A DNA stretch of 48,894 bases from Leclercia adecarboxylata (GTDB lineage Bacteria > Pseudomonadota > Gammaproteobacteria > Enterobacterales > Enterobacteriaceae), in NCBI RefSeq assembly GCF_006171285.1, contig NZ_CP040892.1:1-48894 (forward strand), read 5' to 3'. The notes under the pieces are model-generated. The model saw nothing but the letters and a program-made list of their open reading frames with translations. It had not been told where the DNA came from and ran no database searches. Position numbers and translations under genes: made by a program. Positions 1 through 48,894 of the stretch are shown piece by piece. Positions within the stretch are counted from its first letter, which is position 1, and every line of letters starts with the position of its first letter.

Positions 1-262
<262 letters not shown>

Positions 263-660
263 CTTTATTGTGATAAACAATTGTGTCATTTTCCTGGGAC
301 GTGCGGGTAATCAACTCAGACAAGATCGGATGAAGAATATCCAGCTTCCTATAATATCTGCGCCAGACGACCTTTTTACATGTAAAAATTTGATGCGAGC
401 GAATCTGTTGACTCAAATAATTTGACTGGAAGCCTAGTCGATGCGCAGTGGCTCACATTTAGCCGTAGTGGGCTGGTGAGATACAAATAAATCGTTGTTG
501 AGGTATAAAAAAACTTTGCTTTTTTTAGTTCAATAATAATCGTAAGTTGTCAGTAGCAGAAAAGATGATTAATTATTGCCTGTGTTAGTGAAACCTAATT
601 TATACAGTGATCCGGTATTTTAATTCTGGTGAATAATAAAATTACGGCGGAGATGTTTTT
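263..660. other. Non-coding leader of the catabolic cluster
   Basis: I see no convincing gene between the IS5 end and the first permease. The stretch carries a perfect 16-bp palindrome of TTTTTACA and TGTAAAAA at 373-388, a plausible regulator site, and AT-rich DNA at 500-650 where the cluster promoter probably lies. I could not pick out a clear -35/-10 pair. The cluster regulator is LysR-type, so binding sites for it are expected here, but none can be named with confidence. Confidence 0.5.
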
Positions 661-1896
661 ATGGAAATAGTCGTGTTATTGCCATTGTTGGTAATGGTGA
701 TACTCGTTTTGCGAAATAAGCATATGATTCTGGCAGGACTGGTGGGCGGACTAACCGCGATGCTGGTTGGTGGCATCGGTTTTTCGCAGGCAAGTAAGAT
801 CGTTATGACATCAATTCCCGGGATGACGGGAATTATCACCCCGGTTATCTATTCTGCTGTGGCGTTGGTACTGGCTAAACTCGGTGGTTTTGAAGCGTTG
901 CTCGGTCTGAGTCGCAGAGTGTTTGGCCGAAAGCAATATCTCATTGCGGCGGCGATTGTACTCACTCAGGCGTTAGCAACTTATGCCGCAGGGCTTGGGG
1001 CGGGTAATACCATGGTAACCGGGCCTCTTGCGCTGGCGATTGTAGGTGCTGTTCCACAGCTGATAGCGGGCATGGCAATTGTGACTGCCGCGAGCTTTAT
1101 TACGTCACCTTCAGGGGCCGATGCGGCCGCTATTTCAAAAATTGCCAACATTGAAATTGCAACCTATAGCGATACGATGTTCCCCATTACCGTCTGCTTG
1201 TGGACTTTGGGAATGACTATCGCTGCATTCGGCGTCTGGAAAAGCGGAAGCGTCCTGCAGGATGAGGATACGATGTCCGATGTTACGCTGAAAGAACAGT
1301 TAATTAAGGTCATGCCTCCCGTATATTTTCTGGTAGTCGTTGTGGCAGGCAAAAACTTGAATGAGTTATTCGATTATTCGCTGTTTAGCCCGATATTTAA
1401 TATGTTCAGTACGTTGATGCTGGGTTTTGCAGTAACACGTCAGTCTCCCGGTAAGCTGGCTGAAGAACTGGTACAGAACTCTTCTTTCCTGCTAACAAAA
1501 CTATTCGCAATTGGCATTTTCCTCGGTTTTATCAACATACTGGCGGAAATTGGTACGTTCACCTATATTGCTGAATTTATTAAATCATCACCCGCCTTTG
1601 TTACCGTACCCGTGGCTGTATTTATTGCTTTTTGCATCTCGATTCCGGCAGGAGGATACAGCGTGGGGGTCAGTACCCTGGTCATGCCGATTATGGTGGA
1701 GTCCGGGCTTTCTATTACACAAATTGGTCTGGCGGCACTTGCTGTAGGTGTGGGCACGCAAATGAGCCCGGTTCAAATCAACGTGGCTTCACTGTCACAG
1801 TCATTCAAGCTGGATATTCAGCGAATTGTTAAAATTAATGCACCTTATATGGCTGGCGTTGCGGCGATACTGTGCATCATGGGATTCTTCTTATAA
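661..1896 (+). CDS. Multi-pass organic-anion permease, CitMHS/GntP-like
   Basis: This 411-residue protein is almost wholly hydrophobic, with about ten to twelve predicted membrane spans and small-residue-rich loops such as GLGAGNTM and SPSGADAA. These fit the ion-transporter superfamily (citrate, gluconate and dicarboxylate carriers) in the inner membrane. A GGAG site sits 8 nt before the ATG. It is the first gene of the catabolic cluster, 52 bp before the amidohydrolase, so it probably imports a substrate or exports a carboxylate end product such as malonamate or oxamate. The sequence does not give the substrate. Family level is fairly sure, subfamily is not. Confidence 0.75.
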
Positions 1897-1948
1897 AACA
1901 TCTTACAAAACTTGCTGTCCCTGGTATCTGAAAAAGAGGAAATACACT

Positions 1949-3052
1949 ATGCAAAAAGTTGAAGTGTTCCGTATTCCAACTGCATCGCCGGATGATGTAT
2001 CTGGTCTGAAAAATTTGATTGAGAATGGTAGTGTTGATCCACGTGATATTATTGCTGTATTGGGTAAAACTGAAGGTAATGGTTGCGTTAACGACTTTAC
2101 CCGCGGTTTTGCAACGCAAAGCCTCTCTATCTTCATGGCTGAGCAATTAGATATGTCCGTCAGCGCCGTACAGGAGCGGATCGCATTTGTCATGTCAGGC
2201 GGCACGGAAGGCGTAATGTCGCCCCATCTGACGGTGTTTACCCGCAAAGAGGTGGATCAACCCGCAAAGGAAGGTAAACGTCTGGCAGCCGGTATTGCCT
2301 TTACCCGGGATTTTCTCCCAGAAGAAATTGGCAGAATGGCGCAGGTGAAAGAAGTCGCTGAAGGGGTGCGTATTGCGATGAAAGATGCTGGCATTACCGA
2401 TCCGCAGGATGTTCATTTTGTGCAAATCAAGTGTCCTTTACTGACGGCAGATCGTATTGAGGACGCCAGAGTGCGCGGTCAAACCGTTGCTGTTCATGAT
2501 ACGTATAAATCAATGGCCTACTCCAGAGGGGCATCCGCCCTCGGCGTCGCGCTGGCCCTCGGTGAAGTGTCAGAAGATGCGTTGAACGATAAGGTCATTT
2601 GTCAGGACTGGACGCTTTATTCCGGTGTGGCGTCTACTTCGGCAGGTGTGGAACTTCTGAAGGATGAAATTATTGTTATCGGAAACGCTGAAAACACGAC
2701 CAGCGATCTGCGCATCGGGCATGCGGTGATGCAGGATGCTATTGATATCGATGCCCTGTTTGCCGCTATGCGTGAAGCCGGTCTTGAATTTGACGGTCTG
2801 CCGCCGCAGGAAGAGCTGGATCGGATCGTAAATGTGTTGGCCAAGGCTGAAGCAAGCTCCACAGGAACGGTGCGGGGAAGAAGAAATACGATGCAGGACG
2901 ACTCTGATATCAACCATACCCGCTCGGCCCGGGCCGTGGTCAATGCAGCCATTGCCGCGATTACACGTGACCCGCTCGTGTATGTCTCCGGGGGGGCTGA
3001 GCATCAGGGGCCAGATGGCGGCGGTCCCATTAGCGTAATCGCGAAAGTGTAA
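1949..3052 (+). CDS. Ring-opening amidohydrolase (cyanuric acid amidohydrolase / barbiturase family)
   Basis: This 367-residue enzyme has the length and the threefold repeated Ser-Lys layout of the AtzD/TrzD/barbiturase family. These enzymes hydrolyse a cyclic imide: cyanuric acid to carboxybiuret/biuret, or barbiturate to ureidomalonate. Visible signatures are [14 protein letters not shown] at 39-52 (K40 and R52 match the binding Lys and Arg of AtzD by position), SGGTEG at 83-88, K161, a Ser-rich STSAGVE at 229-235, SSTGT at 303-307 and [14 protein letters not shown] at 347-360. I chose the ATG at 1949 because GAGG lies 9 nt upstream; a longer frame runs back into the permease gene. All key family motifs are intact. 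I cannot decide between cyanurate, barbiturate or a third substrate from sequence alone. It is probably cytoplasmic and lies between two transporter genes. Confidence 0.9.
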
Positions 3053-3173
3053 GCAGCCTGGCAAGGGGGAACGAGCGGTTAATCACGCTCACTCCTGCGC
3101 CAGAACAACCGCGGGGCGGCCCTGCCGGGCAGGGAGCGAGCCGGACTTGGTTTTACGATGAGAGGTGATGCAC

Positions 3174-4478
3174 ATGAATAACCACTTTGTCGGAATTGAT
3201 GAGAAGCCCCCGTTTCTATCTTTGCTGTTAATGGGGATTCAGCACGTGCTGGTGCTGTTCTCAGGTCTGGTAGCCGTACCGTTGGTGGTGGGCATGGCGC
3301 TTGGTCTGCCCAGTACGGATATTACTGTTCTGGTCCAGGGCAGCTTGATTGTTAGCGGTACTGGTACGCTGATTCAATGCCTTGGTTTAGGACATCTGGG
3401 ATCCCGGTTGCCCATTTGCATGGGCTCGGCGTTTGTCTTCATTGCACCCAGTATCACGGTGGGGTCGCAGATGGGGATCCAGGCCGTGTTTGGCGCATCC
3501 ATGGTGTGCGGGTTTGTCGCCTGGATCCTCAGTTTTTTTATTGGAAGAGTGCAGAAACTGATTCCTCCGCTGGTGACCGGAACTATTGTTTCACTGATTG
3601 GTATCAAGCTGCTGCCGCTGGGATTCACCTGGCTTGCTGGTGGGCATAGTGAACTTTATGGCAAGCCGGTATGTTTTCTGATCGGCGGCGTTGTGCTGGT
3701 GGCATTACTGGTTGCCAGCCAGTCGCGAAAAGGCTTGTTATCATCGTTTTCCGTCATTATTGCCATTATGCTGGGATATGTTGTATCGGCACTGCTCGGC
3801 ATTCTTGACCTCCACCACGTGCAGGATGCTTCCTGGGTCTCTTTTCCTGATTTGCTGCATTTTGGTTGGCCGACTTTTTCGTATTCGGCCATTGTCATCA
3901 TGATGATTGCTCAACTTACCGCCGTACTGGAAAGCATTGGTAATACATACGGTACGGGAGCTGCGGTACGCAGAGAGATCACGCATAAGCATTTGTCTGG
4001 CGCAATCTCAGTCGATGGTATCGGCTCGATTGTCGCGCCGCTGCTTAACGGTTTTCCTCTGACCTGTTTTGCCCAGAATATAGGGGTCATCAGTATCACT
4101 CGCGTGGCAAGCCGCTATGTGGTTGCCTCAGCGGGTGTGGTTCTGATTGCACTTGGGTTGATTCCCAAATTTTCAGCTCTGGTCGCGGGAATGCCGGCAC
4201 CGGTGCTCGGTGGAGCGTCTCTGATTATGTTCGGCTCTATCGTCGGGTCAGGCGTCGCCCAGATTAAGGATTCAGGACCGTTCGACCAGCGAGCAGCCAT
4301 GGTTTTTTCAACCTCTCTCGCACTCGGACTGGGGTTTGGCCTGGCGCCGAAAGACGCTTTTGATGCCTTTTCGCCATCGCTGGCCGTGCTCCTGGAGTCG
4401 GGTGTGGCGATTGGTGGAATGGCGGCAATTATATTGAATCTGGTTCTTCCGCGATCACCTGAACCATCCGTTAGCTGA
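3174..4478 (+). CDS. NCS2-family nucleobase permease
   Basis: This 434-residue inner-membrane carrier belongs to the nucleobase-cation symporter 2 family (uracil, xanthine, urate). It has the HVLVLFSGLVAVPLVVG start typical of the family and the motif QNIGVISITR at about 300-309. In the family the first residue of this motif tracks substrate: QN occurs in xanthine/urate carriers such as XanQ, EN in uracil carriers such as UraA. The Gln therefore points to an oxidised purine-like or triazine/barbiturate-like ring. I prefer the ATG at 3174 with AGAGG 8 nt upstream over the in-frame GTG at 3165. It directly follows the ring-opening amidohydrolase, which suggests it brings in that enzyme's substrate. 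A GC-rich, hairpin-forming 110-bp gap precedes it. Confidence 0.88.
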   Translation: MNNHFVGIDEKPPFLSLLLMGIQHVLVLFSGLVAVPLVVGMALGLPSTDITVLVQGSLIVSGTGTLIQCLGLGHLGSRLPICMGSAFVFIAPSITVGSQMGIQAVFGASMVCGFVAWILSFFIGRVQKLIPPLVTGTIVSLIGIKLLPLGFTWLAGGHSELYGKPVCFLIGGVVLVALLVASQSRKGLLSSFSVIIAIMLGYVVSALLGILDLHHVQDASWVSFPDLLHFGWPTFSYSAIVIMMIAQLTAVLESIGNTYGTGAAVRREITHKHLSGAISVDGIGSIVAPLLNGFPLTCFAQNIGVISITRVASRYVVASAGVVLIALGLIPKFSALVAGMPAPVLGGASLIMFGSIVGSGVAQIKDSGPFDQRAAMVFSTSLALGLGFGLAPKDAFDAFSPSLAVLLESGVAIGGMAAIILNLVLPRSPEPSVS

Positions 4479-4675
4479 AATCGCGAGGGTTGAAGTTTAT
4501 TTATTTAATTCATTTTTCGCTTTTATTGAATTGTTCTGCCGTATAAATGATATTTTATGATTCCAGTCTCTGGCAGGTATTTACCTGACCAATGGAAGAT
4601 GGCCAATTATTTATTTTTACTTGTGGTGGATATAAGGTTGAATCATTATCGGTAATTCTCCGATGGAGGTGAAAT

Positions 4676-5554
4676 ATGACATCTTTAACACTGATTCCCG
4701 TTACGGTCGGGTATTTGGCCATTGACCGTCTGAACGATGCCGGGAATCAACAAATAAATGTTCACAGCTGCTTTACAAATACGATGAATTTATTGTTGTC
4801 TGATGGTGAATTACTGATACTGGCTTCGGAGCACACCGGTTTAAATCATCCTGATACTATTATTGTTAGCGTACCGGCGAACTGGGATTGGCGTTGTACC
4901 GGGCGTGCGGGGATTACGTTCGGTGATGGTATATTCAGCAATCCGGTTTGGCAAATGGATATACGCCATGTTAAACGTTGGCAGCAAACAGACTTATATC
5001 CATTAATAATGACGGAAACTGAAAGGAAATATACGTTTCTTGCTGAGCAATTAAAAGTGTACAGTCAGAGATATTCGATCAAAAGTGCAATTATGCTGTT
5101 GCCCGATAATATGGCTAAACAGGTAAATCGACCATTGCGCGAAGTAAATATCGCCATTGAAGATAATGAGCAGCAGATTAGCCAGCTGGTTGACGGATTA
5201 ATTGGTTTTGGTTTCGGTCTGACGCCCGATGGCGACGATTATCTTCTCGGATATCTCGCAGCCATCTCTTTTTTGCCACAGGACATTATTTCGAGGCAGC
5301 GACGGGCGCTTACCAGAATTATTATATCGAGGCTGGATCGTACCAATGATATTAGCCAGCATTATCTGAAGCGCGCGACGGAGGGCCATTTTTCTGAAGC
5401 GATTTGTCAGCTGCTGACGCACCTATCGGCGCCTTTTTCGCCTTCGCCTCTTGCGGCGGCGGCGACAGCTGTCATGCGGTTTGGCGCCTCTTCCGGAGTC
5501 GATTGTCTGGCTGGACTACTTCATGGCATACGTGCGTCAACCCGCATTCATTAA
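4676..5554 (+). CDS. DUF2877 protein, AllH/YlbF-like
   Basis: This 292-residue protein carries the hallmark of the DUF2877 family, GFGFGLTPDGDDYLLGYLAA near residues 180-199, and a second conserved GASSGVDCLAGLLHGI near the end. In E. coli the relative YlbF (AllH) works with FdrA (AllF) and YlbE (AllG) as an oxamate transcarbamoylase that releases carbamoyl phosphate from oxalurate. The next two genes are the AllF-like and AllG-like partners, so the same three-part complex is present. GGAGG lies 6-7 nt before the ATG. A 197-bp AT-rich gap upstream may hold a separate promoter. The complex is inferred from gene company; the residue-level match covers only the family motif. Confidence 0.85.
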   Translation: MTSLTLIPVTVGYLAIDRLNDAGNQQINVHSCFTNTMNLLLSDGELLILASEHTGLNHPDTIIVSVPANWDWRCTGRAGITFGDGIFSNPVWQMDIRHVKRWQQTDLYPLIMTETERKYTFLAEQLKVYSQRYSIKSAIMLLPDNMAKQVNRPLREVNIAIEDNEQQISQLVDGLIGFGFGLTPDGDDYLLGYLAAISFLPQDIISRQRRALTRIIISRLDRTNDISQHYLKRATEGHFSEAICQLLTHLSAPFSPSPLAAAATAVMRFGASSGVDCLAGLLHGIRASTRIH

Positions 5555-5649
5555 GGCATAACACGATGTGTTTTACCGGAGGGATTTTCCCTCTTACGAC
5601 TAATTGTTGCTGATTTCTTATGGCAATGGCGAATGAACAGGTAGCCTAC

Positions 5650-7200
5650 ATGAAAGTACTACACGGTATTTTTAAAAATCTTTATCAGGATTCCGTTTCC
5701 CTAATGCAGGTTTCCGCAAGCATCATCAATTTGCCTGGTATTAAGCAGGCATCCGTTGTGATGGGAAGTGAGACCAATCTTATTCAATTAAGAGACGCAG
5801 GGCTGGGCGACAATATTGCTGCAGGTCCTAACGATCTTATTATTGCGATTATGGGGGAAGATGAGGCCTGCGAGCAGGCACTGGCACTGGCGAAGGAGAA
5901 ACTTAACAGTAAGCCGCAGGCTGATACAGAAGCCGGGAGAAGGCTGGTACAGTTTACCAGCTTGGCTATGGCGGCTGAACAGGATCCAGAGGCTAATTTG
6001 GCGCTGATCTCCGTTCCCGGCGATTATGCTGCCGCCGAGGCAATCAAAGCTATTGAGCTCGGTATGCATGTCATGCTGTTTAGTGACAATGTGAGTCTCG
6101 CCGAGGAAAAAGCGATCAAAACCCTTGCTCGGCAGAAAAATCGGTTGGTGATGGGGCCTGATTGCGGTACGGCGATTGTTAATGGGATCCCGCTGGGGTT
6201 TGCTAACGTTGTCCGCAGAGGGGGTATTGGCATTGTTGGTGCTTCCGGCACGGGGTTGCAGGAAGTCACCTGCCGCATTGATCAATTGGGCGGAGGGATT
6301 TCCCAGGCGTTAGGGACCGGTGGCCATGATTTACACGAGGAAATTGGTGGTATCAGCATGCTGATGGGGCTGAATGCCCTGGCGGAAGATGATGAGACGC
6401 AGGTGATTGTCCTTATTTCCAAACCGCCAGCCTATGACGTTGCGGAAAGGGTTCTCACCCAAGCGCAGAAAGCAGGAAAACCCGTTGTTGTAAACTTTTT
6501 AGGTGCTGCACCGCAGAGCGTTACGCGGCCAGGTGTTGTTGCCGCATTAACGCTGGCAGAGGCCGCTGAACTGGCTATGTCGTTTGTTGCGCCAGAGTCC
6601 GCTCAGCAGGCGCAGTCATCAGCATGCTGTACTGAAGATGAATTTATTCAAAAGCAAACGCAGATTAACGGCGCCGATAATTCACGTAGATATATACGGG
6701 GCGTTTTTGCGGGCGGAACATTTTGTTATGAAAGTCAGTTAATTTGCCAGCGTAATGGTATAACCGCCCATTCTAATACGCCAATAAAAGGAAACTTAGC
6801 GCTAAATAATATCTGGCAGAGTGAGGGGCATACCTTAATTGATATGGGGGATGATGATTTCACCCGCGGCCGTCCACACCCCATGATCGACCCGACGCTG
6901 CGTAATCAGCGGATTATCGCTGAAATTAACGATCCGCAAACGGCGGTTGTGCTTTTTGATCTTGTTCTTGGCTATGGCGCAGCACCGGAGCCAGCCGAAG
7001 AATTACTGAAACTGCTCAATGCTACCAACAGAGCGGCCAGCCCGTTATTAATAGCCCATGTTTGTGGAACACAGAGCGATCCACAACAGCGTAGCGTGCA
7101 AATTGGCGCCTTGAGACGCTATGGCGTTCTGGTTGCTGACAGCAACGCTCAGGCTACATGCTGGGCCGCCAGCGCAGTAAATAATCTGGGAAATAAATAA
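5650..7200 (+). CDS. FdrA/AllF-like acyl-CoA synthetase-fold protein
   Basis: This 516-residue protein resembles FdrA (AllF), which has the fold of the succinyl-CoA synthetase alpha chain. Visible landmarks are the opening MKVLHGIFKNLYQDSVSLM, MGPDCGTAIVNGIPLGFANV around 170, the nucleotide/phosphate loop GASGTGLQEV around 196, and an ordered C-terminal half with LGYGAAPEP. In this family, together with DUF1116 and DUF2877 partners, it catalyses phosphorolysis or transfer of a carbamoyl group. I start at 5650 because the family's N-terminus aligns there and AGG lies upstream; an earlier ATG at 5620 has no ribosome site. It lies 9 bp before the AllG-like gene and about 95 bp after the AllH-like gene. 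Confidence 0.85.
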   Translation: MKVLHGIFKNLYQDSVSLMQVSASIINLPGIKQASVVMGSETNLIQLRDAGLGDNIAAGPNDLIIAIMGEDEACEQALALAKEKLNSKPQADTEAGRRLVQFTSLAMAAEQDPEANLALISVPGDYAAAEAIKAIELGMHVMLFSDNVSLAEEKAIKTLARQKNRLVMGPDCGTAIVNGIPLGFANVVRRGGIGIVGASGTGLQEVTCRIDQLGGGISQALGTGGHDLHEEIGGISMLMGLNALAEDDETQVIVLISKPPAYDVAERVLTQAQKAGKPVVVNFLGAAPQSVTRPGVVAALTLAEAAELAMSFVAPESAQQAQSSACCTEDEFIQKQTQINGADNSRRYIRGVFAGGTFCYESQLICQRNGITAHSNTPIKGNLALNNIWQSEGHTLIDMGDDDFTRGRPHPMIDPTLRNQRIIAEINDPQTAVVLFDLVLGYGAAPEPAEELLKLLNATNRAASPLLIAHVCGTQSDPQQRSVQIGALRRYGVLVADSNAQATCWAASAVNNLGNK

Positions 7201-7209
7201 GGAACTGAT

Positions 7210-8631
7210 ATGAACTCATTATTTTCTCAGTCACTTAATGTGATTAACGAAGGCCTTGCCAGTTTTGCCGATAATATCAGGCAAGCCGGGGGAGAGGTCA
7301 CTCCTTTGAACTGGCAGCCGCCCGCTGAAGGGGATCGTTTTACCGGGCTGTCCCTCGCGGGGCTTATTAACCATCCCGTCGTGGAGCGCGCCAATCAGGT
7401 GGCAATGGGGCGCTATCTTGACGCTCAGCCGGTATTAGTGGATGTCCTGACCGCGGCTGTGGCGATTCCGGCAATGGCGGAACAAAAATTAATTCTGCAT
7501 GCCGGTCCCCCTATCGCTTGGGAAGAGATGTGCGGGCCGGTCAAGGGTGCCATTATCGGCGCAATATTGTTTGAAGGCTGGGCGGCAAGTAAAGATGTGG
7601 CATCTCGTTTGGTTCTTAATGGCGAAATTGCCCTTGCTCCGTGCCACCATTACGACGCCGTTGGCCCTATGGCCGGCGTTATTAGTCCTTCGATGCCGTT
7701 GTGGGTAATCGAAAATAAAACTAACGGCAAGCGTGCCTTCAGTAACTTTAATGAAGGCCTGGGCAAAGTTTTACGCTTTGGGGCGAACAATGAAGAGGTC
7801 CTGGAGCGCTTAACATGGATATCGCAGGAATTAGGCCCGGTAATGAAAGCGGCGGTGTGCCAGTTGGGTGAGCTTGAACTAAAACCCATAATGGCTCAGG
7901 CGTTGCATATGGGGGATGAGGTACATAACCGTAATGCCGCCGCGACGGGGCTGCTAATTAAGCGTTTATTTCCCGTGCTGCTGAGATGTAACTTACCGAA
8001 CGTCCAGCTTCAGAAGGTCGTGTCATTTATTTCTGGTAACGATCATTTCTTCCTGAATCTTTCTATGGCGGCAAGTAAGTCGATGATGGATGCCGCCGCT
8101 AATGTACCATTCAGCTCGCTAGTGACTGTTATGGCACGAAATGGCGTCAACTTCGGTATCCGGCTCTCGGGCCTTGGTGACCAGTGGTTCCAGGCGCCGG
8201 CCAACCCGGTAGAAGGGTTATTTTTCCCTGGCTATAGCGTAGAGGACGCCGCGGCTGATCTGGGAGATAGCGCCATTACTGAAACCGCAGGCGTGGGCGG
8301 CTTTGCGATGGCATCTTCCCCGGCCATCGTTAAATTTGTGGGGGGGACCCCCGCTGATGCAACTGAAAATAGCCGACGCATGCAGTTTATTACCGTGGGC
8401 TCAAACCCTGCGTTTACTCTACCTGCCCTGAACTTTTCACCGACCGCGGCCGGTATCGACGCGCGTAAAGTTGTCGATCGCAGCATACTACCGATTATCA
8501 ACACCGGTATCGCCCATAAGGAAGCCGGCGTTGGCCAGATTGGCGCCGGAATCACCACGGCTCCGATGGCCTGCTTTAGTGCAGCGATTCGGGCTCTTGC
8601 GCAAAAGCTCACTGAGGAGAATCCCGAATGA
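7210..8631 (+). CDS. DUF1116 protein, YlbE/AllG-like
   Basis: This 473-residue protein matches the DUF1116 family (YlbE/AllG) in length and in the conserved stretches GPPIAWEEMCGPVKGAI near 97-113, HHYDAVGPMAGVISPSMPLW near 145, MGDEVHNRNAAATGL near 236 and FISGNDHFFLNLSMA near 273. It is the third member of the AllFGH-type transcarbamoylase set. AAGGA stands 6 nt before the ATG. Its stop overlaps the start of the carbamate kinase gene by 4 bp (ATGA), so the two are translationally coupled. That fits a product, carbamoyl phosphate, being passed straight to the kinase. The acceptor or donor molecule here is unknown. Confidence 0.87.
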   Translation: MNSLFSQSLNVINEGLASFADNIRQAGGEVTPLNWQPPAEGDRFTGLSLAGLINHPVVERANQVAMGRYLDAQPVLVDVLTAAVAIPAMAEQKLILHAGPPIAWEEMCGPVKGAIIGAILFEGWAASKDVASRLVLNGEIALAPCHHYDAVGPMAGVISPSMPLWVIENKTNGKRAFSNFNEGLGKVLRFGANNEEVLERLTWISQELGPVMKAAVCQLGELELKPIMAQALHMGDEVHNRNAAATGLLIKRLFPVLLRCNLPNVQLQKVVSFISGNDHFFLNLSMAASKSMMDAAANVPFSSLVTVMARNGVNFGIRLSGLGDQWFQAPANPVEGLFFPGYSVEDAAADLGDSAITETAGVGGFAMASSPAIVKFVGGTPADATENSRRMQFITVGSNPAFTLPALNFSPTAAGIDARKVVDRSILPIINTGIAHKEAGVGQIGAGITTAPMACFSAAIRALAQKLTEENPE

Positions 8632-9590
8632 GTAAACCTTTAGCCGTTGTGGCCGTGGGCGGAAATGCGCTCATTGCCGATGACAAGCGTAATAGTATTG
8701 ATGAACAGTATGCGTGTGTCACTGATTCCGTTCGCTATCTTTGCGATATGATCGAGGTCGGTTGGGAAATGTTGTTAACTCATGGCAACGGGCCACAGGT
8801 CGGCTTCATTCTGCGTCGTTCTGAAATATCCCGGGAGGAAGTCTCTCCGGTCCCCCTCGACTACGCGGTGGGTGATACGCAGGGAGCGATTGGTTATATG
8901 TTCCAGAAAGCGTTCAAAAATGAGCTGCAGCGGCGCGGTATTCACAAACCTATAGTCTCACTAGTGACGCAAACCCTTGTCGATAAAGATGATGCCGCGT
9001 TCAGCCACCCCTCAAAACCCATTGGCGCGTTTCTGGATCGCCATACCGCTATGCAGCGCCAGAAAGAGCTGGGCTGGACAATCATGGAGGACTCAGGGCG
9101 CGGCTGGAGACGTACCGTTCCATCACCTCAGCCACTGGAAATTATTGAGCTTGAAACCATTGCTCAGTTATTGCGTTACGGTTGTATTGTGATTGCCTGT
9201 GGCGGTGGCGGTATTCCCGTTGTTCGCGATCGTGATGGAATGTTGCATGGTGTAGAGGCGGTTGTTGATAAGGATTTAGCCTCAGCCCTGATAGCAGATA
9301 AACTCCATGCCGAATTACTGCTGATATCCACTGGGGTTGAACAGGTTGCTGTCAACTTTGGTACGCCCGAGCAGCGGGGGATCAATAGCCTGACTATCGC
9401 TGAGGCTCAACAATTGCTCAAAGAAGGGCAATTTGGTGAAGGAAGTATGCAGCCCAAGGTCGAAGCGATTGTTGATTTTGTGTCGCGTAGCCAGTCGAAA
9501 GGGAGAAGTGCGAAGGGACTTATTACCAGTCCGAATGCCATTCACGCGGCTTTGCAGCATAAAACCGGCACCTGGATTGGAGAGGAGTAA
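8628..9590 (+). CDS. Catabolic carbamate kinase (AllK/ArcC-like)
   Basis: This 320-residue amino-acid-kinase-fold enzyme converts carbamoyl phosphate and ADP to ATP and carbamate, which decays to ammonia and CO2. It shows all family landmarks: VAVGGNALI at 7-15, LTHGNGPQVG near 48, CGGGGIPVV near 190, VVDKDLASALIA near 210, and GSMQPKVEA near 272. Length is normal. It is the last enzyme of the cluster and overlaps the AllG-like gene by 4 bp, as its E. coli counterpart ybcF (allK) lies beside ylbE/ylbF. Its presence argues that the cluster yields energy as well as nitrogen. Confidence 0.95.
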   Translation: MSKPLAVVAVGGNALIADDKRNSIDEQYACVTDSVRYLCDMIEVGWEMLLTHGNGPQVGFILRRSEISREEVSPVPLDYAVGDTQGAIGYMFQKAFKNELQRRGIHKPIVSLVTQTLVDKDDAAFSHPSKPIGAFLDRHTAMQRQKELGWTIMEDSGRGWRRTVPSPQPLEIIELETIAQLLRYGCIVIACGGGGIPVVRDRDGMLHGVEAVVDKDLASALIADKLHAELLLISTGVEQVAVNFGTPEQRGINSLTIAEAQQLLKEGQFGEGSMQPKVEAIVDFVSRSQSKGRSAKGLITSPNAIHAALQHKTGTWIGEE

Positions 9591-9654
9591 TCCGCTGCGG
9601 TAACCCTTAAATCCGCCGCGGCTGCTATCCATGCTGATGACAATCGCGGCGTTA

Positions 9655-9679
9655 GCAGGAGGGGGGAGAGTTTGCTCCT
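9655..9679. other. Hairpin between carbamate kinase and LysR gene
   Basis: The arms GCAGGAG and CTCCTGC can pair around a 10-11 nt purine-rich loop. There is no clean T-run after it, so it is at best a weak terminator between the enzyme genes and the regulator. It may instead only be a stable stem in a 247-bp gap that otherwise holds no gene. Confidence 0.35.
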
Positions 9680-9837
9680 GCGACAAATCCTTGCAGCCTG
9701 GCGTCACGCTATCGGGTGCTGGCTTTTTCCAAACTAAATCCCTTGTGTTATGTTTATAGGTGTCACCATCATCTATGATTTACAGGCGACGATCAGAATC
9801 AGAGGTACTGCCGGGATAGCAACACAGGGAGATAGAG

Positions 9838-10740
9838 ATGTTCATTTCTGATGAAGTATTGCGCATAGTTCATCTGGTTGCACACTATCAGAGCATTGCA
9901 ACGGCCGCTGAACAGCTCAATAAAGTACCTTCGGCGTTAAGCTATACAATAAAAAAGCTGGAAGAAAGCCTCGGCGTGGAGTTATTCGAGCGTAAGGGAC
10001 GAAACATCGGGCTAACTCCTTCAGGGGAGTACTTTATTCAACACAGTAAACCCATTCTCAACGATATTGATTCTTTATGTCGTAATACCACATTAATCCA
10101 TACTGGGGTTGAACAAGAATTAACGGTAGCATTTAATAATATTGTGCCTAAAAATATTATTTCAGAATTTATTTCAGAATTTGAAAAAACATTCGACTTA
10201 ACGCAGTTAACAGTAAACACTGAAGTTTATAACGGCTGCTGGGACGCCATTTATCACAATCGTGCGGATGTGGTTGTTGGCGCCCCTCACTCCGTGCCAT
10301 CCAGTGATGGAATAATAAGCGAACATGTTGGCTATATGGATTGGGATTTTGTTGTTGGTCCGCAACATTCGCTAGCTACTCACATTCACCCATTAGAAAA
10401 CAGAGAGTTACGCCAATATACTGCTGTTTGCATCCGGGATACGGCGACGAATTTTATCCCTCTTTATGCCTGGCATCTTGAGGGACAAAAAGCAGTATTT
10501 GTACCCGATCTTGAAATCGCTATTTCGCTGATAAAAAGTAATACTGCGATAGGATACCTTCCCCATCATTTAGCCAGGCCGCTACTGAACAATGGTAGAT
10601 TAATAAAGAAATCTATGCTTGAGCATAAGCACGCGACGCAGTTATTTGTGGCCGCGAAAACGGATGGTTTGGGAGAGGCAGGCCGCTGGTGCCTTGAATA
10701 CTGGCTGCGTCCGGATATTAAATTCAGGCTGAATGGTTAG
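9838..10740 (+). CDS. LysR-family transcriptional regulator of the catabolic cluster
   Basis: This 300-residue protein has a typical N-terminal winged HTH (SIATAAEQLNKVPSALSYTIKKLE at about 19-42, then LGVELFERKGRNIGLTPSGE) followed by a periplasmic-binding-fold effector domain. LysR proteins usually activate an adjacent operon when they bind a pathway metabolite. It lies 247 bp after the last enzyme on the same strand, with GGGAG before its ATG. This differs from the usual divergent layout, so its binding sites are more likely far upstream at 263-660 or in the internal gaps. The effector is presumably the ring compound or its ring-opened product. Confidence 0.92.
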   Translation: MFISDEVLRIVHLVAHYQSIATAAEQLNKVPSALSYTIKKLEESLGVELFERKGRNIGLTPSGEYFIQHSKPILNDIDSLCRNTTLIHTGVEQELTVAFNNIVPKNIISEFISEFEKTFDLTQLTVNTEVYNGCWDAIYHNRADVVVGAPHSVPSSDGIISEHVGYMDWDFVVGPQHSLATHIHPLENRELRQYTAVCIRDTATNFIPLYAWHLEGQKAVFVPDLEIAISLIKSNTAIGYLPHHLARPLLNNGRLIKKSMLEHKHATQLFVAAKTDGLGEAGRWCLEYWLRPDIKFRLNG

Positions 10741-11226
10741 GTTCGAATAAAAAGTCTTCCTCATTTTTACCCAGTAAATCTGTTGAACAAGGTATGTTAT
10801 GATCTTGCTCTGTATCTGTGAACGAAATCTATTTTTACTCCCTGATAAAATTAATTGATAATATTATTAGAGTGCAAATATTTTCTATGCAATTCTTGTG
10901 GTTTCTAAGGTATTAGACTGTTATCACGCAAAAATTGCTACAGTTGTATATATGCATTTGTTTGGGTTGTTCAGGGCCAACATAAGAAGCTAGCGATAAA
11001 ATCATAAAAATTTAGCATATTACTAATATCAAATCATGAGGAGCCGAGCTCATTATGGTTTCATTCTCATTGTATTTTTGATTGTAGTTAATGCCTATTA
11101 ACGAAGGTGGCGAAAATATTTGCAATATTTAAAGATTCATAGGGATTTTTAGTTTGGTAATTTTTAATTGAAATATCTTATTTATATTATCCTGTAGCTG
11201 ATGCGCTAGGACGATATAAAGTAATG
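10741..11226. other. AT-rich stretch without a recognised gene
   Basis: Between the LysR stop and the interrupted small ORF I see no frame with a good start and ribosome site. The base composition is much more AT-rich than the catabolic genes, which suggests that the true edge of the imported cluster lies just after the LysR gene. Confidence 0.5.
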
Positions 11227-11230
11227 GTGT

Positions 11231-11388
11231 TCACCAGAGAACACCATTTGACAAGTAGAGCAATCTATCATTTATACTGGTTAGTTTTTTTTTGCTTATC
11301 AGTATTTCTTGTGCTTTTGCTATTTCCCTTATTAGTTTGCTGGTTCCTTTGTTCCTGTTAAGCTGATTTGCATGATGATCGGCGTTAG
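11231..11388 (-). pseudogene. Small ORF interrupted by IS5, C-terminal part
   Basis: On the - strand the frame from the IS5 edge to the stop at 11231 encodes the end of a small protein beginning NADHHANQLNRNKGTS and ending NGVLW. Removing the IS at 11389-12584 and one copy of the TTAG duplication joins it to an ATG near 12624 and gives an uninterrupted frame of about 63 residues starting MSNTNKYQYDKANADHHA. It is hydrophilic and basic with no signal peptide. I do not recognise its function, and its ribosome site is weak. The clean rejoining is good evidence that it was once one frame. Confidence 0.6.

Positions 11389-12584
<1,196 letters not shown>

Positions 12585-47984: not shown

Positions 47985-48894
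<910 letters not shown>

Follow-up and report, generated by a model that had tools for sequence, protein, structure and literature searches.

A mobile plasmid cassette joins a cyanuric acid hydrolase to an AllFGH-like complex and carbamate kinase: a candidate phosphorolytic route from cyanuric acid

In this work, we describe an eight-gene cassette on a plasmid contig of Leclercia adecarboxylata (NZ_CP040892.1, contig C5 of a genome totalling 5.76 Mb); the contig is complete at 48,894 bases, and this whole stretch is called the window below. Together with the gene for an AtzD-type cyanuric acid hydrolase (CAH), the cassette carries genes for homologues of all three AllFGH subunits and for a carbamate kinase. 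Cyanuric acid is a disinfectant and herbicide residue. We consider it probable, at roughly 0.7, that this is a mobile cyanuric acid operon in which the AllFGH-like complex uses phosphate to cleave what ring opening yields (carboxybiuret, or biuret from it), releasing carbamoyl phosphate, from which the kinase would form ATP. The carbamoyl transfer step we infer from genome context, as set out below.

In the proposed pathway, cyanurate would be imported by an NCS2 permease and/or a second transporter, T1, and AtzD would open the ring to 1-carboxybiuret, a step for which homology gives strong support. The AllFGH-like complex would then move the terminal carbamoyl group of the ring-opening product onto inorganic phosphate, either from carboxybiuret, giving carbamoyl phosphate and allophanate, or from biuret formed by loss of CO2, giving carbamoyl phosphate and urea. 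Judging by homology, carbamate kinase would convert carbamoyl phosphate to ATP, NH3 and CO2, and the leftover nitrogen would exit as urea or allophanate or be taken by a host allophanate hydrolase or urease.

Results

Composition of the cassette

Eight genes on the + strand occupy positions 661-10740:

661..1896, + strand: T1, a membrane transporter, weakly DcuC-like
1949..3052, + strand: AtzD-type CAH (PF09663, 537 bits; NF052395, 580 bits, cut-off 360)
3165..4478, + strand: NCS2 nucleobase permease, pbuX subfamily (profile matches; 80% identity to its counterpart in Paenibacillus locus L007)
4676..5554, + strand: AllH-like subunit, DUF2877 (PF11392, 81 bits, cut-off 25)
5620..7200, + strand: AllF/FdrA-like subunit (NF004760, 472 bits, cut-off 433)
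7210..8631, + strand: AllG-like subunit, DUF1116 (PF06545, 320 bits)
8628..9590, + strand: carbamate kinase (NF009007, 366 bits, cut-off 266)
9838..10740, + strand: LysR-type regulator, nearest families PunR/AllS

The first-pass annotation of this DNA had described the one-strand gene set, its coordinates and the 4-bp overlap of the AllG and carbamate kinase genes (8628-8631) correctly, leaving T1 unnamed. For AtzD we took ATG 1949 as the start (367 amino acids), where the open reading frame (ORF) caller had used an upstream TTG; the start of the AllF/FdrA-like gene is annotated 10 codons later in relatives. The kinase scores slightly under the arcC equivalog TIGR00746 (346 against a cut-off of 358).

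The ring opener is a predicted cyanuric acid hydrolase

The first-pass annotation had placed the ring opener in the family of cyanuric acid hydrolases and barbiturases. Tree placement and catalytic residues identify it as a CAH, as a predicted activity. Its best solved relative is Moorella CAH 6bum (583 bits, against 327 bits for barbiturase 5hwe), and in a 44-row AtzD tree it falls in a 98/98 clade with 6bum, whereas 5hwe lies in a separate 100/100 clade; barbiturase is ruled out as the window enzyme by this placement, and is found in parallel operons elsewhere (see below). Lys40, Lys161 and Lys299, Ser83, Ser231 and Ser347, and Arg52, Arg193, Arg325 and Arg328 are all identical to Moorella CAH, and the roles of these catalytic Ser-Lys dyads and substrate arginines are described in PMC6557486. 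The NF052395 cyanurate equivalog is passed by the window AtzD but also by a barbiturase-clade member (L019), and was dropped as a discriminator between the two activities. At 271 of 368 aligned columns, the window enzyme is identical to that of a Moorella locus (L060), whose protein differs from 6bum only at engineered sites (PMC6557486) and the first residue; by its sequence, L060 encodes the wild-type Moorella CAH.

A short contig labelled as a Klebsiella pneumoniae metagenome-assembled genome (L028) carries a barbiturase-clade AtzD and AllF among Rhizobiales-like sequences; the labelling is possibly a binning error.

AtzD and AllFGH recur together in two further phyla

All three AllFGH subunits score over their cut-offs (PF11392, NF004760 for FdrA, and PF06545). 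At near-invariant positions (at least 97% conserved), counted for AllG over 67 rows and for AllF over 70 rows with L111, L125, L162 and L163 left out, the window proteins show zero departures.

We surveyed 398 genomes of Bacillota (the phylum of Amphibacillus), 398 of Pseudomonadota and 396 in the phylum of genome G003, presumably Actinomycetota. In the centre genomes G001 (L006) and G003 (L019) the linkage was known beforehand, and counts are given with and without them. The first-pass annotation had asked whether these genes are usually found apart in other genomes, and the answer differs between phyla. In Bacillota, PF09663 was found in 13/398 genomes, full-length in 12 (the AtzD fragment of G355 was excluded), and AllF and/or AllG lie alongside AtzD in 10 of these 12 loci, in stretches of 13.7-21 kb (9/11 without the centre). 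G333 (L070) was scored as negative; its weak AllG (115 bits) lies about 12 kb from AtzD, beyond the stretch. A kinase above 100 bits is present in 5/12 loci. AllG as such occurs in 60/398 Bacillota genomes, 11 of which are among the 13 with PF09663. The Moorella operon L060 reads T1-AllH-AllF-AllG-AtzD-(small membrane-type ORF)-NCS2-kinase. In Paenibacillus tepidiphilus (L007), identity to the window is high for T1 (83%), AtzD (87%) and NCS2 (80%) and lower for AllF (46%), AllG (53%) and kinase (43%), so that by sequence this is the same gene combination with another back end. In Pseudomonadota, AtzD was found in 14/398 genomes, and none of the 13 besides our own has AllF or AllG alongside. 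Hydrolase-type neighbours (amidase or isochorismatase matches) stand in 11 of these 13 AtzD regions, the amidase matches near 100 bits, of which Pseudomonadota have several, possibly being generic amidases.

The phylum of G003 has AtzD in 27/396 genomes, 22 of them barbiturase-like, a tree-free call based on tblastn, in which 5hwe outscored CAH. AllF or AllG accompanies 14 of the 22 (13/21 without L019), counts that are lower bounds as several contigs span 3-10 kb; a kinase is present in 15, and NCS2 often. None of the other five AtzD loci has AllF or AllG, and four of the five have amidase or BiuH-like genes. Two loci, L190 and L191, are 84-86% identical to barbiturase 5hwe and have a kinase near, with AllF and AllG not nearby.

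Pooling the three surveys, a hydrolase-type gene lies near 2 of 24 AllFG-positive loci (L006 and L065) as against 17 of 28 AllFG-negative ones (Fisher p = 1.2e-4), and near 1/22 against 17/28 without the two centre loci (p = 2.8e-5), p-values that are too small because the loci are related. Phosphorolysis by an AllFGH-like complex and kinase behind the ring opener, as the first-pass annotation had proposed, gains support from recurrence in two further phyla, from the few hydrolytic genes in those loci and from the clades shared between CAH- and TrtA-linked sets described below.

T1 gave no match in a Pfam search. It is present in 7 of the 12 Bacillota AtzD loci (L006 and L060-L065), and an annotated relative with 42% identity occurs in Melaminivora alkalimesophila, whose genus name hints at melamine use. 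The T1 substrate may be a triazine, and the NCS2 permease is presumed to take up cyanurate.

AtzC/cytosine-deaminase-like amidohydrolases, which could supply cyanurate from aminotriazines, occur in five Bacillota AtzD-AllFGH loci, adjoining AtzD in four and lying near it in L063:

L063, 6465-7631
L065, 4040-5068
L067, 2414-3571
L068, 10095-11246
L069, 7824-8972

Three of these loci (L067, L068 and L069) have AllG in two tandem copies beside AllF and AtzD.

Related AllFGH sets accompany TrtA-like enzymes

A second ring of evidence comes from operons with isochorismatase-type enzymes resembling triuret hydrolase (TrtA). Two such operons, one from an avian pathogenic E. coli ColV plasmid (L074, 896-9074) and one from a Photobacterium replicon (L164, 4690-13160), have the order isochorismatase-AllH-AllF-AllG-kinase and also hold a CodB-type permease; they are likely triuret operons. 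The window AllF and AllG are 65 and 78% identical to those of the ColV operon, against 39 and 48% to K-12 AllF and AllG, and the cassette LysR is 66% identical to that of the ColV operon. Candidate positions distinguishing K-12-type from CAH/TrtA-type sets are Asn240, Asn277, His279 and Ser302 in AllG and Phe363 and Phe414 in AllF, with only two K-12-type rows in the comparison.

The nearest PDB entry to the ColV isochorismatase is TrtA (6xix). Six positions separate triuret hydrolase from biuret hydrolase (BiuH; PMC7948467); judged by eye from the alignment, in the numbering of that paper, the TrtA residue is found at 6/6 of them in the ColV enzyme, at 4/6 in L006 and in L145, and at 3/6 in L112 (with one BiuH residue), while BiuH residues occupy 5/6 in L065 and 6/6 in L066. 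His160 is present in the TrtA-like enzymes of L112 and L145. In Amphibacillus L006, AtzD and a TrtA-like gene lie in the same cluster.

In trees of AllG (70 rows) and AllF (72 rows), the CAH label takes four changes, and four TrtA-linked rows, representing about two independent events, add none. Random four-row draws matched this fit in 0/2000 cases in either tree, and random two-row draws did equally well in 1/2000 (AllG) and 0/2000 (AllF); for these permutations L162 was omitted, the doubly linked L006 (CAH and TrtA) was given the CAH label, and rows with barbiturase went into the "others". TrtA and AtzD both yield carboxybiuret (PMC7948467). Because TrtA- and CAH-linked back ends are shared and both enzymes make this compound, the AllFGH substrate would be carboxybiuret or biuret.

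Among the sequences seen, the closest likeness to the front end of the cassette (T1-AtzD-NCS2) is in the Paenibacillus locus, and that to the back end is in the ColV and Photobacterium triuret-type operons; for this reason the cassette looks, from sequence comparison, like a hybrid of two sources. By GC content, front and back genes are indistinguishable.

Carboxybiuret or biuret

The first-pass annotation had considered phosphorolysis of biuret to urea and carbamoyl phosphate, and 1-carboxybiuret, giving allophanate, may be the substrate instead; our data favour neither. In favour of carboxybiuret, AtzD forms it directly, and its half-life is about 20 min (PMC7948467). It is also an isostere of ureidomalonate, the product of barbiturase, and resembles oxalurate; an AllFGH back end is likewise seen in barbiturase-like loci. 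A GntR-ABC transporter-AtzF module (L188, 12148-19937) would fit allophanate as product, and hence carboxybiuret as substrate: 25 of the 26 plasmids bearing this module also match the cassette. Biuret is favoured by spontaneous decarboxylation and by a possible decarboxylase in the TrtA operons. Encoded in the ColV operon is a protein of 129 residues consisting solely of an allophanate-hydrolase C-terminal domain (PF21986), and the Photobacterium operon has a similar ORF; that these are decarboxylases is a guess.

Hydrolases in the host and other carriers

The usual hydrolases had been thought to be missing. This holds for the window, where tblastn gave no match to AtzE, AtzF, BiuH, TrtA or AtzC markers, but not for the cell: the host chromosome has urease, and also an allophanate hydrolase over its cut-off, the latter (amidase plus PF21986, contig C2) being encoded next to an ORF with carboxyltransferase/biotin domains, an arrangement seen in urea carboxylase operons. 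Among 16 genomes, allophanate hydrolase is over cut-off in three (G225, which has no AllFG; G002, Paenibacillus; and G006, K. michiganensis) and urease in five, two of these being 24-bit matches (G169 and G215). The ten Bacillota survey genomes with AtzD and AllFG include none with allophanate hydrolase over cut-off, and those two 24-bit matches are their sole urease matches.

Weighing the alternatives

E. coli AllFGH is proven as an oxamic transcarbamylase with oxalurate as its demonstrated substrate (PMC11326118), and the AllFGH and kinase genes of the cassette might accordingly be a true oxalurate (allantoin) module that merely travels with CAH, the CAH product being handled by chromosomal allophanate hydrolase, amidases and urease. 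The affinity of the cassette LysR to PunR/AllS and the two host hydrolases would suit this explanation. We nevertheless hold it to be unlikely: the linkage of AtzD to AllFGH recurs with different AllFGH clades, the window AllF and AllG are much closer to the TrtA operon than to K-12, allophanate hydrolase is lacking over cut-off in the ten Bacillota carriers, and the K-12 AllA, AllB, AllC, AllD and AllE markers have zero window matches, the sole allantoin-marker match in the window being AllW (27 residues, 33 bits). A further explanation places AllFGH downstream of biuret hydrolase, with allophanate phosphorolysed to carbamoyl phosphate and carbamate. In line with this, the AllFGH genes of L065 stand with one for a BiuH-like enzyme, in a genome (G169) without allophanate hydrolase over cut-off. 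Isochorismatase is, however, absent from the window and from all but two of the ten AtzD-AllFG loci in Bacillota, the L006 enzyme leans towards TrtA at the discriminating positions, and AtzF on the 25 sister plasmid records would compete for allophanate, all of which makes this explanation distinctly unlikely. We regard as very improbable a barbiturate pathway (from uracil), in which AtzD would be a barbiturase and AllFGH would split ureidomalonate into malonamate and carbamoyl phosphate. Such operons seem real elsewhere: in the phylum of G003, AllF or AllG accompanies 14 of the 22 loci of barbiturase type, L019 and L194 hold molybdenum (Mo)-hydroxylase genes, and NCS2 carriers can move pyrimidines. 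In the window, the AtzD lies in the CAH clade with a far higher score to CAH than to barbiturase, and a marker search of the window gave no match to the Mo-hydroxylase marker.

Several observations weigh against phosphorolysis of the CAH product, which we still prefer. In the accessible literature we found no enzyme assay of such AllFGH sets, oxalurate being the demonstrated substrate (PMC11326118). The majority of Bacillota AllFGH sets are without AtzD, and 28 of 57 fetched Bacillota AllG stretches without AtzD (L107-L163) hold a Mo-hydroxylase-like gene, for which reasons the AllFGH substrate is not readable from the family alone; an NCS2 permease is present in 21 of the 57, which probably belong to other ureide pathways. 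Without the centre loci, the hydrolase contrast is not significant within either phylum (p = 0.055 for Bacillota, 0.096 for the phylum of G003), and the relatedness of loci makes these p-values too small as well. One AtzD-AllFGH operon, L065, has a BiuH-like isochorismatase inside it. The AtzD proteins of L067-L069 are diverged on a long branch, two of the three falling just below the NF052395 cut-off, and these AtzD-linked rows were counted among the "others" in the tree permutations. The ABC-transporter/AtzF module is found on 25 of the 49 cassette-matching plasmid records, and two cassette-type carriers, G002 and K. michiganensis G006, encode allophanate hydrolase. Lastly, on comammox contigs allFGHK lies beside putative trtA, biuH and atzF, and the authors interpret it as a separate oxalurate pathway alongside that for triuret (PMC12625717).

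The cassette on plasmids and among enterobacteria

The cassette carrier is, by sequence, a conjugative-type plasmid with a backbone like that of IncX5 conjugative plasmid pCCRI24236-4 (Citrobacter farmeri, L002), to which the main aligned pieces of the window are at least 99.9% identical. Around the cassette we note:

259..11388, strand not assigned: contiguous segment common to two other plasmid loci (99.9% to L002; 99.8% to L003, a plasmid from a Sydney shower isolate)
11536..12516, - strand: right-side IS5-like transposase (92% to the annotated L002 IS5)
47994..48894, + strand: another IS5-like transposase, continuing past the contig end; it would flank the cassette on the left in a circular contig

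When window bases 500-10800 were queried against 72,556 plasmid records, 49 records matched, 46 of them with coverage of at least 80% in one place and 44 with identity of at least 99%. By genus these are Citrobacter (18), Klebsiella (11), Enterobacter (8), Raoultella (4) and Leclercia (4), with one record each in Escherichia, Aeromonas, Shewanella and Serratia. Replicons typed among the inspected records include IncX5, IncHI2A, IncFIB/FII (two), IncFIC/FII and rep_cluster_2037 (Aeromonas). Since 44 of the 49 match at 99% or more, the spread looks horizontal and recent as far as sequence can tell; chance is excluded by the 49 matching plasmid records and by the recurrence of the gene set in distant phyla, and the idea that the cassette is unique to this plasmid was rejected, as the gene combination recurs in other genomes and phyla. 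The cassette is also present in two Enterobacteriaceae assemblies of another collection (L004 and L005), and one cluster of T1 protein occurs on 680 contigs. A near-mode search of 20,395 E. coli genome records gave zero cassette matches, and among 343 genomes of the host's family PF09663 was found only in its own genome. Chlorinated isocyanurate disinfectants as the selective force would be a guess.

Discussion

Pathways through CAH, BiuH, AtzEG/AtzF and TrtA are known, and several of them resemble the cassette in part. E. coli AllFGH with AllK (PMC11326118, PMC9843812) represents the same three-subunit family with a kinase, and near-invariant AllF and AllG positions are kept in the window; the difference is that the window set has a ring-opening amidohydrolase as its partner where E. 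coli has allantoin genes, with carboxybiuret or biuret as the presumed substrate. The atzDGEHF region of pADP-1 (L072) likewise has an AtzD-type CAH on a conjugative plasmid with a LysR regulator, but there the product is hydrolysed by AtzEG and AtzF, in place of which the window has AllFGH and kinase. The same CAH front end is seen in AtzD-BiuH-AtzF (L066, Bacillota) and AtzD-BiuH (Rhizobium, L073), where BiuH and AtzF stand in the position of AllFGH and kinase. With the triuret pathway TrtA-BiuH-AtzF (PMC7948467) the intermediate carboxybiuret is shared, whereas in the ColV and Photobacterium operons the TrtA-like enzymes are followed by AllHFG and kinase instead of BiuH. In comammox bacteria and ammonia-oxidising archaea, allFGHK is co-located with triuret/biuret genes, a likeness to the operons seen here; in the nitrifier metagenome-assembled genomes of that study no atzD was found (PMC12625717).

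On pADP-1 (L165, 1798-6707, equal to 67797-72706) and Agrobacterium p3 (L166, 7001-12204), atzC is preceded by a gene for carbamate kinase and a truncated piece of allG, with 68% and 59% identity to the window. Farther on, past an IS5-family element, lies a T1-related transporter (34% over 346 residues). An AllFGH-kinase-T1 operon may have been the source of atzC.

In the accessible portions of the open-licence PMC literature, we found no phosphorolytic route from cyanurate or triuret, and neither this cassette nor AllFGH acting on biuret or carboxybiuret is described or proposed in what we found there. What is new here is a recurrent combination of known enzyme families and, with it, a predicted new reaction. 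Going further, we would give somewhat better than even odds to a wider picture, in which phosphorolysis of N-acylureas (R-CO-NH-CO-NH2 + Pi -> R-CO-NH2 + carbamoyl phosphate, Pi being inorganic phosphate) is a common, energy-conserving back end to the AtzD/barbiturase family, serving the breakdown of cyanurate and triuret in Bacillota and of barbiturate in the phylum of G003, cyanuric acid is fermentable with a gain of ATP, and the plasmid cassette is a recent transfer into enterics of clinic and water.

If our interpretation is right, cyanuric acid, triuret and barbiturate would be degraded with a yield of ATP in Bacillota and a further phylum, and the crystallised Moorella CAH would have a candidate for the step that follows it. 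FdrA/DUF1116/DUF2877 sets linked to these enzymes would acquire a testable substrate rule. It would also account for a near-identical catabolic cassette on many clinical and water-associated enterobacterial plasmids. With the product split by phosphate rather than by water, the cell would gain ATP as well as nitrogen.

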